The notes below the pieces were generated by a model, which saw nothing but the letters and a program-made list of their open reading frames with translations, ran no database searches and was not told where the DNA came from. Made by a program: the position numbers and the translations under genes. Of a DNA stretch of 64,000 nucleotides, positions 61,685 through 63,986 are shown piece by piece (the stretch's first letter is position 1; each line of letters begins with the position of its first letter). The DNA is from an uncultured Alphaproteobacteria bacterium (lineage in GTDB: Bacteria; Pseudomonadota; Alphaproteobacteria; Rs-D84), in the NCBI GenBank assembly GCA_944389555.1, contig CALXMU010000004.1, positions 78,042 to 142,041 on the forward strand. Reading direction: 5' to 3'.

Positions 61685-61770
61685 TTTATAAACCTTTTTT
61701 ATTACTGCGAGCAATTTTAGGTTAAAAATTACTGGAAATCAAGTAATTTTTATCATAATATATAATTCAC

Positions 61771-61868
61771 GCACTGATAAAGTGCAGTGTTGTACTTAAT
61801 GCGGGTATGGCGACTACGAAGCGAAGCGTAGTGCCGCCGTGTTAAAAAAACATAGTGTTGTACTTAAT

Positions 61869-61881
<13 letters not shown>
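61771..61881 (+). repeat. Duplicated 5' end of tRNA-Leu with palindromic insert
   Basis: A 28-base sequence at 61786-61813, comprising 15 bases of upstream DNA and the first 13 bases of tRNA-Leu, recurs exactly at 61854-61881, where the intact tRNA starts. The first copy runs straight into a hairpin: GGCGACTACG pairs with CGTAGT-CGCC, with a bulged GC. Another hairpin, GCACT-GATAA-AGTGC (61771-61785), precedes the first copy. Confidence 0.9.
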
Positions 61882-61953
<72 letters not shown>

Positions 61954-61968
61954 AAATTTCCGTAAATT

Positions 61969-62088
61969 TTAATATACTGGGTAGTTACGTGGAAATGACG
62001 GGTCTGGGCGTTGTAAGTCAGACTTTACGCCGCACGCTGCGATTGCAAATGTAGAAATGAATAAAATTCCTAAAATAATTTTTTTCAT
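61969..62088 (-). CDS. lptM: Tiny LptM-like lipoprotein
   Basis: A 39-residue lipoprotein: a signal peptide with lipobox (KKIILGILFISTFAIAAC, cysteine 19) followed by the short mature part CGVKSDLQRPDPSFP. The C-G-x-K-x-x-L-x-x-P pattern matches the LptM (YifL) family, small lipoproteins that help mature the LptD-LptE LPS translocon. The match is short, so confidence is moderate, but the lipobox, signal and excellent promoter argue it is a real gene. It converges on tRNA-Leu with 15 bases between. Confidence 0.72.
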   Translation of the reverse strand: MKKIILGILFISTFAIAACGVKSDLQRPDPSFPRNYPVY

Positions 62089-62213: not shown

Positions 62214-63986
62214 ATGTATCACAGTAATGGAAATTATGAAGCGTTTGCCAACCCTATGCCGCCAGCAGATGCCGGGAAAAAGTCGGCGTATATAGTTGGT
62301 GGTGGTTTGGCTGGTTTAGCCGCTGCAGTATTTATGATACGTGACGGTAAGATGAAAGGTAATAAAATTCATATATTTGAAGAATTGCCTTTGGCTGGGG
62401 GAAGCATGGATGGAATATTGAATCCGTCGCGTGGTTACATTATCCGCGGTGGACGAGAAATGGAAGCACATTTTGAGACTTTGTGGGATTTATTTCGCTC
62501 TATACCATCGTTAGAAAATCCTGACGTTTCAGTTTTAGATGAATTTTATTGGTTAAATAAAGCGGACCCTAGTTTTTCACATTGCCGCGCAATAGAAAAA
62601 CGTGGTAAGCGTATGAAAGATGACGGAAAATTAACTTTAACACCGACGGCAATTCGGGAATTGATAGACCTTGCATTGACGCCAGAAGAGAAACTACAAG
62701 ACGTTCAAATTGACCAGGTTTTCACAGAGGAATTCTTTGAATCTAATTTCTGGTTGTATTGGGCGACTATGTTTGCGTTTGAAAAATGGTCCAGTGCCAT
62801 GGAAATGCGGCGATATATTTTACGCTTTATCCACCATGTTGGTAAACTAGCAGATATGTCTGCGCTGAAGTTTACTAAATATAATCAATATGAATCTTTG
62901 ATAACGCCGCTGGTTCGTTGGTTAGAGGCGCATGGTGTAAAGTTTCATTTTGATACCACAATTACAAATGTAATTGTGGATTGTAAAGCAACGAAAAAGG
63001 TCGCAAAGAAAATAGAAATGATAAAATCTGGGCGTAAAAAAGAAATGGATTTAAGTCCAGATGATTTGGTGTTCATCACTAATGGTTCTATTACAGAAAG
63101 TACTACGTATGGTGATAACGAAACACCTGCTGATTCTCGTCATGAACTTGGTGCCAGTTGGCAGTTATGGAAAAATATGGCAAAGCAATGTAAAGAGTTC
63201 GGACGACCGGAAAAGTTCTGTGAGAACATACCGGCTGCGAACTGGGTTATGTCTGCGACTATAACTCTGACAGACGACACTGTGGTTCCATATATTGAAA
63301 AAATATGTAAAAAGAATCCGCATAGTGGTTCCATTGTTAGCAGCGGTCCCGTTACTATAAAAGATTCAAATTGGTTTTATGGGTTCAGTATTTCACGGCA
63401 ACCGCATTTTCGCAGTCAGAAATCAAACGAGATAATCGTTTGGACTTATGGTTTGTTATCTGATACCGAGGGTAATTATGTAAAGAAAAGAATTGCGGAT
63501 TGTACGGGGGCAGAACTATGTGCGGAATGGCTGTATCATATAGGGGTTCCAGAATCCCAGATAGAAGATATTGCACATAATCGTTCTAATACAGTTCCGT
63601 CTCATATGCCTTATATAACAACGTACTTTATGCCGCGTGCGCTGGGTGATAGACCGTTGGTCGTTCCAAAAGGTTCTGTAAATTTAGCTTTTATCGGTAA
63701 TTATGCGGAAACAGAACGCGATACAGTATTCACGACAGAGTATTCTGTTCGTACGGCAATGGAAGCGGTTTATACATTATTGAACATAGACCGTGGTGTT
63801 CCTGAGGTATTTGATTCATGCTTTGACGTTCGTATGTTGTTACAAAGTATATATTACTTAAACGACAGAAAGAAATTGCATGAGATAGATGTACCATGGG
63901 TTCTAAAACTATTAGAAAAGCAGGGGCTCAAAAAAGTAAAGGGTACGTATTTAGAAGAACTTTTGCGTGAAGCGAAGTTGGTATAA
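62214..63986 (+). CDS. ohyA: Oleate hydratase (MCRA family)
   Basis: An FAD-containing enzyme that adds water to the cis-9 double bond of oleate to give 10-hydroxystearate. The 590 residues start with the family's [11 protein letters not shown], then the FAD loop [14 protein letters not shown], and [27 protein letters not shown] and FRSIPS follow. Many gut bacteria use it to detoxify free unsaturated fatty acids. The start follows AAAGGAGAGAGA. Codon choice looks like its neighbours. The gene is complete. Confidence 0.94.

Follow-up and report, generated by a model that had tools for sequence, protein, structure and literature searches.

An intact tRNA-Leu(UAG) gene is preceded, in the 64,000-nucleotide stretch of alphaproteobacterial DNA analysed here (the window), by a short hairpin unit that, as read from the sequence, lies between tRNA nucleotides 13 and 14. 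Two copies of nucleotides 1-13 flank it, and an uninterrupted tRNA gene is therefore left downstream; the insert itself is a conserved hairpin, its lower stem built with the GGCG of the tRNA copy. In the reading that we favour, to which we give about an even chance, this unit is a member of a family of gene-less mini-insertions, spread across the genus at tRNA-Leu genes, that copy the tRNA end and spare the gene. We place this reading ahead of a relic of gene duplication, and the relic ahead of a regulatory leader RNA. The unit, whose mobility we infer, has the look of a very small insert, mobile or self-duplicating, of a kind so far undescribed; a literature search, with most subscription journals outside its coverage, found no earlier description of such units.

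The repeat and hairpin upstream of tRNA-Leu(UAG)

A repeat search of the window returned a single direct repeat of 28 nt, 100% identical and 68 bp apart (61786-61813 and 61854-61881), as the first-pass annotation had described; the span given there began at 61771, and the repeat, which is real, begins 15 bp further right at 61786. It consists of 15 bp of leader (first copy at 61786-61800, identical to 61854-61868) and nucleotides 1-13 of tRNA-Leu(UAG), and, given 4^28 possibilities, a chance origin of an exact 28-bp repeat so close by is not expected. The upstream copy of nucleotides 1-13 (P; 61801-61813, identical to 61869-61881) takes in the acceptor 5' strand, nucleotides 8-9 and the 5' strand of the D stem, and then continues directly as CTACGAAGCGAAGCGTAGTGCCGCC (61814-61838), so the break into a hairpin after 13 tRNA bases was correctly seen at first pass. 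This inserted core, CTACG(NAGCG)2NAGTGCCGCC, starts exactly after tRNA nucleotide 13 and forms a hairpin with the GGCG that precedes it (GGCGACTACGAAGCGAAGCGTAGTGCCGCC, 61809-61838); the hairpin, assigned by pattern and position, is conserved and covarying in the genus, and its lower 5' arm, GGCG, is part of P. A 30-nt linker (61839-61868), whose end is the second leader copy (61854-61868), leads to the tRNA gene with its CCA (61869-61953; ARAGORN; Rfam RF00005, 58.4 bits). All of these parts are on the plus strand.

The unit sits between the tRNA and a promoter-like region, TACTGGAAATCAAGTAATTTTTATCATAATATATAA (61730-61765, plus strand), which is divergent from rpmG and is kept in unit-bearing and unit-less relatives with the rpmG context. 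This region probably acts as the tRNA promoter; a consensus promoter scan of the window listed no plus-strand site at 61730-61765. Between the L33 gene and the tRNA there is also an imperfect palindrome with 23-nt arms (61714-61761, 83%), similar in relatives, that may be a divergent promoter pair. Upstream of the unit come the divergent L33 gene and then the gene for a topoisomerase subunit A, named ParC here. On the far side of the tRNA, a small lipoprotein-like ORF, MKKIILGILFISTFAIAACGVKSDLQRPDPSFPRNYPVY (61969-62088, minus strand), faces it and has a 12-of-12 promoter match upstream (62124-62095); in several relatives a similar gene precedes the tRNA and shares its strand. The gene for an MCRA-family protein, presumably oleate hydratase kin, adjoins the tRNA at 62214-63986. 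We found no recombinase with the unit: no gene fits inside it, and the named neighbours are parC, L33 and MCRA.

BLAST and pattern searches found no further copies of the unit in its own genome (G000; 882,323 bases in 5 contigs), the BLAST search also giving a 19-nt match with an E value of 1.2, and the pattern CTACGAAGCGAAGCGTAG occurs once in the window at up to 3 mismatches (0.02 expected). The first-pass annotation had proposed looking for other copies; its own genome holds just the one, and many relatives carry the duplication, so a unique hairpin with no duplication elsewhere is not the situation here.

Units at tRNA-Leu genes across the genus

We take the host genus, one of gut bacteria with small genomes, to be Candidatus Enterousia because ParC is 85% identical to that of Candidatus Enterousia onthequi (L107). 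Enterousia belongs to the order Rs-D84 and has genomes of ~0.75-1.0 Mb, and the words tRNA, repeat and hairpin are absent from the main text of the paper that places it there (PMC12306168). With the unit as BLAST query, matches were obtained in several genomes of the same genus. The pattern GGCGACTN{4,34}TGCCGCC matched in 72 of 156 genus genomes, chance matches included, and a UAG-type tRNA-Leu in 135 of the 156. Our locus set was made of the pattern matches that showed the core, together with many tRNA-Leu(UAG) loci, coreless pattern matches being mostly left out. When loci alike in the tRNA and the last 60 bp were merged, 137 tRNA-Leu loci resulted (118 UAG and 19 AAG), a set without loci L097-L176 and nine extra-genus loci, in which L037, also extra-genus, stayed. 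The anticodon AAG, seen here at 19 merged genus loci (L199 and L215, for example), is unusual in bacterial tRNA-Leu.

A copy of the locus's own tRNA nucleotides 1-13, with at most 2 mismatches and no more than 400 bp upstream, was present at 35 of the 118 UAG loci and at 13 of the 19 AAG loci, the latter being no frequency because AAG loci were chosen for carrying units. A relaxed hairpin pattern, which missed one of the two units in L214, detected 64 units at 47 distinct tRNA-Leu loci (31 UAG, 16 AAG) in 43 genomes. Six of the 48 loci with the 13-nt copy do not fit the hairpin pattern; a related hairpin can still be read in L281, L311, L314 and L327, and L321 and L329 have a larger insert in its place with the 13-nt copy present. 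Most loci found by the 13-nt copy alone thus show the core, which is therefore mostly present even when it was not used for finding.

Written on the tRNA's strand, the unit is tRNA nucleotides 1-13, then CTACG(NAGCG)0-2NAGTGCCGCC, then a linker. The core, from GGCG to CGCC, is 30 nt long in 31 of the units and 20 nt long in 26; the remaining 7 have 21, 25, 31 or 33 nt. Unit length (n = 64) is 67-69 bp in 27, 41-59 in 25, 61-62 in 4 and longer, up to 122, in 8. Most of the 47 loci hold one unit (35), with two in 9, three in 1 and four in 2, in tandem; some arrays run to contig ends (L193/L194, L210/L211, L221/L222).

The copied sequence is that of the local gene. P and the local tRNA agree exactly over nucleotides 1-8 at 39 of the 47 loci, covering 12 acceptor sequences; 10,000 permutations gave a mean of 9.3 such loci and a maximum of 19. 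At the other 8 loci P differs from the tRNA. The repeat reaches no more than 4 nt to the left of tRNA nucleotide 1 in 37 of 47 loci, the window being one of the ten exceptions at 15 nt. A target duplication of fixed length would accordingly fit those 37 loci but not the window. In the 21 loci with a linker of 28-31 nt, the last 13 linker nucleotides have a likeness of 0.54, compared with 0.37 for the 13 nt before the first P; the leader of a unit-less relative, G165, ends in similar sequence, so the linker end may be copied leader. The linkers of L069, L096 and L210 contain promoter-like sites that match at 10 of 12 positions. UAG and AAG units are weakly more alike within a genome than between genomes, a marginal result (p 0.048, 8 genomes), and the likeness is strong in G169.

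The core keeps company with tRNA-Leu. Of the 70 distinct core matches in the genus loci collected, 61 are followed by a tRNA-Leu on the same strand and none has it in another arrangement; no tRNA-Leu is in reach of the other 9, of which 8 are near a contig end (L040, L193, L211, L216, L222) and 1 is at a masked stretch (L070). An order-wide pattern scan of 201 genomes gave 4 matches outside the genus (G035, G172, G185, G187), and no tRNA was found within about 1.5 kb of those in G035 and G172. When the 34 tRNA kinds other than Leu-tag and Leu-aag in the collected loci, mostly with one gene each, were searched for a copy of the 5' end upstream, only Leu-taa, which a real tRNA-Leu precedes, and 1 of 5 Ala-tgc genes (L105) were positive.

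These counts bear on whether the unit is a REP-like or Rickettsia-type palindromic repeat that lies near a tRNA by accident, which we regard as very improbable. It is a palindrome with CTAC/GTAG in its stem and GCGNAGC loops, and the REP elements and REPINs moved by RAYT (PMC3733652) are likewise short palindromes with GTAG in the stem and tandem clusters. Many dispersed extragenic copies would be expected of such an element; the unit is not dispersed, has one copy in G000, sits at tRNA genes, and in none of the 70 core matches is clearly away from a tRNA-Leu. No RAYT goes with it: the Y1 family PF01797 occurs in 2 of 156 genus genomes and not in G000, as against 5 of the 14 control genomes. 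The GTAG, followed by TGCCGCC, is internal to the stem (61828-61831) and not at the palindrome end. With a single core in its own genome and hardly any Y1 transposase in the genus, the unit is not a REP. Rickettsia palindromic elements are likewise palindromic mini-inserts of small alphaproteobacterial genomes; they are dispersed and partly inside protein genes, whereas the unit is found at tRNA ends with a tRNA copy.

Presence of the unit changes between close relatives. The site is empty in G165, the nearest relative by ParC (96%), whose leader is equally long (36 nt by eye count). A ParC tree was built for 31 near genomes, of which 27 were scored for the UAG unit (12 with it, 15 without); G124 and G167, which have the larger insert, formed a group of their own, G168 and G136 were unscored, and G138, which has no unit, dropped out for want of an extracted open frame. 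The tree requires 9 changes (bootstrap 8-9), at least 5 of them forced by starred branches; shuffled labels gave a mean of 9.5 and were as low in 222 of 500. The 9 changes, together with the empty site in G165, indicate that presence changes quickly. Gain and loss fit the scattered presence alike and the tree does not separate them, and frequent loss of an old unit could be the source of the pattern. The first-pass suggestion of a mobile palindromic footprint or target duplication at a tRNA comes close to the reading favoured here, given the empty sites, the own-tRNA copy, the conserved covarying hairpin and the frequent presence changes; its dispersed, REP-type form is not supported, the core being unique in the genome and 61 of the 70 genus matches lying by a tRNA-Leu.

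Stem pairing and the folding of the leader

The 68-nt unit folds at -24.4 kcal/mol, compared with -15.8 ± 2.5 for shuffled sequences (z -3.4, 1/200); with the next 15 nt included, z is only -2.0 (11/200 shuffles). In an alignment of short units (23 rows), columns 17/21 change from C-G to U-A in 6 rows, and in one of long units (23 rows, from 27 distinct 30-nt units) columns 17/31 do so in 2; the pair is broken in neither alignment. A U.G pair is kept in 45 of the 46 aligned rows. Such compensatory stem changes are those of a structured hairpin, and because the rows are related, the 8 of 46 with the C-G to U-A change are not a count of independent events. RNAalifold pairs GGCG with CGCC and UAC with GUG, with an inner GC-GNA-GC, in the long form, to which alone it credits covariation; the short form has a different inner pair. 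The sequence d(GCGNAGC) makes stable mini-hairpins, and the unit core CGNAGCGNAGCGNAG likewise holds GC-GNA-GC with N free, the difference being that in the unit it is part of a larger stem with the U.G pair. Rfam searches of the window, 8 loci of the 3' class described below and 9 tRNA-Leu loci placed only tRNA above the gathering score, with weaker matches below the cut-off.

P can also pair with the arm that follows the hairpin (anti-P). With these two arms included, 20 alignment cells have both sides changed, compared with 9.6 after shuffling (0/500), the rows again being related. Across all 47 loci anti-P matches its own tRNA significantly (5.00 compared with 4.65 ± 0.08 permuted), a result driven by short-linker loci: where the linker is at most 25 nt (18 loci) the values are 6.22 and 5.50 ± 0.15 (0/10,000), and in the 29 longer-linker loci, including the window, the match is not significant (830/10,000). 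In L017, L081, L213 and L073 the real tRNA fits anti-P better than does the unit's own P. When the 47 leaders were folded with their tRNAs in ViennaRNA, the predicted partner of the 3' acceptor strand was P (mean 0.68) more than the tRNA's own 5' strand (0.18; 0.79 with a 15-nt leader alone); in the window the 3' acceptor strand was evenly divided between P and its own 5' strand (0.48 and 0.50). The first-pass annotation had raised a possible effect on transcription of the tRNA; these models, whose energies are a rough guide for a tRNA that folds co-transcriptionally, suggest a possible effect of the unit on tRNA folding.

Such pairings raise the question of a cis-acting leader RNA, in which P, anti-P and the real tRNA 5' end would pair in two ways, freeing or sequestering the tRNA 5' end, or in which RNase P would be offered a false 5' end. 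The C-G to U-A changes and the retained U.G pair suit RNA better than DNA, all 61 core matches with a tRNA-Leu in reach are on the tRNA's strand, and both the anti-P preference in short-linker loci and the predicted capture of the 3' acceptor strand by P are in keeping with this proposal. We nevertheless think it unlikely. Most loci are without the unit (the 13-nt copy is at 35 of 118 UAG loci, although at least 4 more, L017, L081, L212 and L287, carry a unit with a diverged copy), and frequent presence changes would be unusual for a needed regulator. The longer-linker loci, the window among them, give no significant anti-P match, in L069, L096 and L210 the promoter-like site falls between unit and tRNA, and the fold energies carry the uncertainty just noted. 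Mixed readings are also conceivable, in that a mobile unit may have turned leader.

Broken tRNA copies, 3'-end units and the insertion reading

The point at which the unit begins is broken in other ways too. At 12 of the 137 loci a downstream tRNA-Leu piece is present without its first 12 nt; the comparison began at tRNA nucleotide 13 by construction, and the loss of nucleotides 1-12 was judged by eye, in agreement with BLAST matches that start at nucleotides 10-13 (G014, G017, G083, G100, G113, G127, G141, G163, plus G164). None of the 12 keeps the GGCG before nucleotide 13. A GC-rich insert precedes the piece, itself largely kept, in 9 (L011, L205, L212, L281, L297, L303, L325, L342, L350), and AT-rich sequence does so in L007 and L296. 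In L321 and L329, upstream of an intact gene, tRNA nucleotides 1-12 are followed by an insert of ~85 nt and then by the tRNA from nucleotide 13, which L329 retains to about nucleotide 40. Inserts and broken pieces at the same place mark the D-loop point at nucleotides 12-14 as a repeated breakpoint. By eye, the 85-nt leader insert of G167/G124 (L321, L329) resembles a portion of the 3'-type unit that G000 has at tRNA-His (the ACGAGTGGTGAGCAGCA.. stretch; L239).

The broken copies could also be taken as traces of a tandem tRNA-Leu duplication, whose upstream copy was broken in the D loop by hairpin sequence and lost its 3' part, the likeness being kept by unequal crossing over and gene conversion, with neither mobility nor function. 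Broken second copies do exist, L329 retains tRNA sequence after its insert, and the repeat takes in the leader or more in the window, L019 and L210 (15, 22 and 42 nt). This relic leaves unexplained the same core at UAG and AAG loci in 43 genomes, as well as a parallel class at tRNA 3' ends, and its repeated origin at exactly nucleotide 13 wants a reason; we consider it improbable, if the first of the alternatives.

The core CGNAGCGNAGCGNAGYG has a match in 36 of 151 genus genomes, 5' units included. Sixteen non-unit loci with CGNAGCGNAGCGNAGYG were read, and a tRNA gene was found in 15 and none in L373; L368 is a broken tRNA-Leu, and the other 14, with L373 by its sequence, form the 3' class. 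Here the tRNA is followed by a terminator, about 120-170 bp with a GGTTCGGGACG..AAAGGGGCCC..GGGAATTACAATC-like stretch, and then a copy of the tRNA's last ~18 nt, with 0-2 mismatches in 9 of 14 and 3-4 in L369, L372, L377, L378 and L392. In G000, such 3'-end copies occur at tRNA-Tyr and tRNA-His, 2 of the 34 own tRNAs examined, with a different inner sequence at His (L233/L426, G000:C1:143812-144174, and L239); relatives have them in L365, L366, L369-L372, L374-L379, L391, L392 and L459, and over this wider list the structured stretch measures about 120-200 bp. The genes concerned are Tyr, His, Pro, Gly, Ser, Glu and Leu-caa, and the units are in tandem in L371 and L071. At tRNA-Tyr, the terminator of the empty site (G132) is like the outer one of G000, G133 and G140, so the unit seems to be the source of the inner one; in G041 the outermost terminator is unlike that at the empty site and does not simply fit this reading. 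Between the G041 tRNA-Tyr and a 3' unit at its far end lies an island of ~12.6 kb (L456, G041:C1:541200-554800) that encodes type I restriction HsdR, HsdM and HsdS, a YgjP-like metallopeptidase and a large serine recombinase. The 3' class supports the insertion reading, though it shares little but the core with the 5' class.

Mobile DNA in bacteria often lands in tRNA genes, mostly at the 3' end and as elements that have an integrase, and the ICEs, IMEs and phages found there, with the gene-less CIME remnants, are the comparison class for the unit. With these elements and islands it shares the tRNA target, the direct repeat of a tRNA end that flanks the insert, the intact, regenerated tRNA, tandem accretion and empty sites in relatives (G165; 15 of the 27 scored tree genomes); the 3' class adds the terminator that it seems to bring and the G041 island with its serine recombinase by a 3' unit. 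The unit differs from them in lying at the 5' end and D loop rather than the 3' end, in its size of 41-122 bp without integrase or cargo, and in a repeat that is nearly always the local tRNA.

We counted in favour of insertion the 64 units at 47 loci, the copy of the own tRNA, the empty site of G165, the scattered presence, the broken second copies, the 3' class and the promoter-like sites in linkers. Counted against it were the lack of a linked enzyme, Y1 in just 2 of 156 genomes, the absence of the exact patterns from viral contigs (three scans were empty, two with unit patterns and one with a 3'-class pattern, so phage carriage was not seen there), P differing in 8 of 47 loci, the weak within-genome likeness, the odd G041 terminator and the possibility of frequent loss. 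By the insertion reading, the unit would arrive through a mechanism in which the 5' end of the target itself is copied, either a staggered insertion that duplicates some 13 bp of the target or a recombinase-like integration in which the newcomer brings a new tRNA end and leader. Units would then multiply through recombination between the repeats, the same recombination could remove them cleanly, and the unit would be tolerated because the tRNA is regenerated; it may also tune the tRNA through its leader. A broader claim, that an active gene-less family inserts in tRNA genes, the 5' class at the D loop and the 3' class at the T loop, and carries a tRNA copy from the loop to the mature end, the host tRNA surviving each insertion, is in our view doubtful. 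Under this claim, certain species might also have a transcript that reads as a tRNA-Leu carrying a hairpin insert in the D arm and a second possible 5' end. Fragments of tRNA 5' and 3' ends have sizes like those of the copied pieces (nucleotides 1-13, and the last ~18 nt with CCA), and on that account such a fragment, and not DNA, could have served as the template.

If the insertion reading is right, gene-less units of some tens of bases that settle at the 5' end, copy the local tRNA and come and go between close species would amount to a novel way to inhabit a tRNA gene; a leucine tRNA would then have a variable array of hairpins in its leader.
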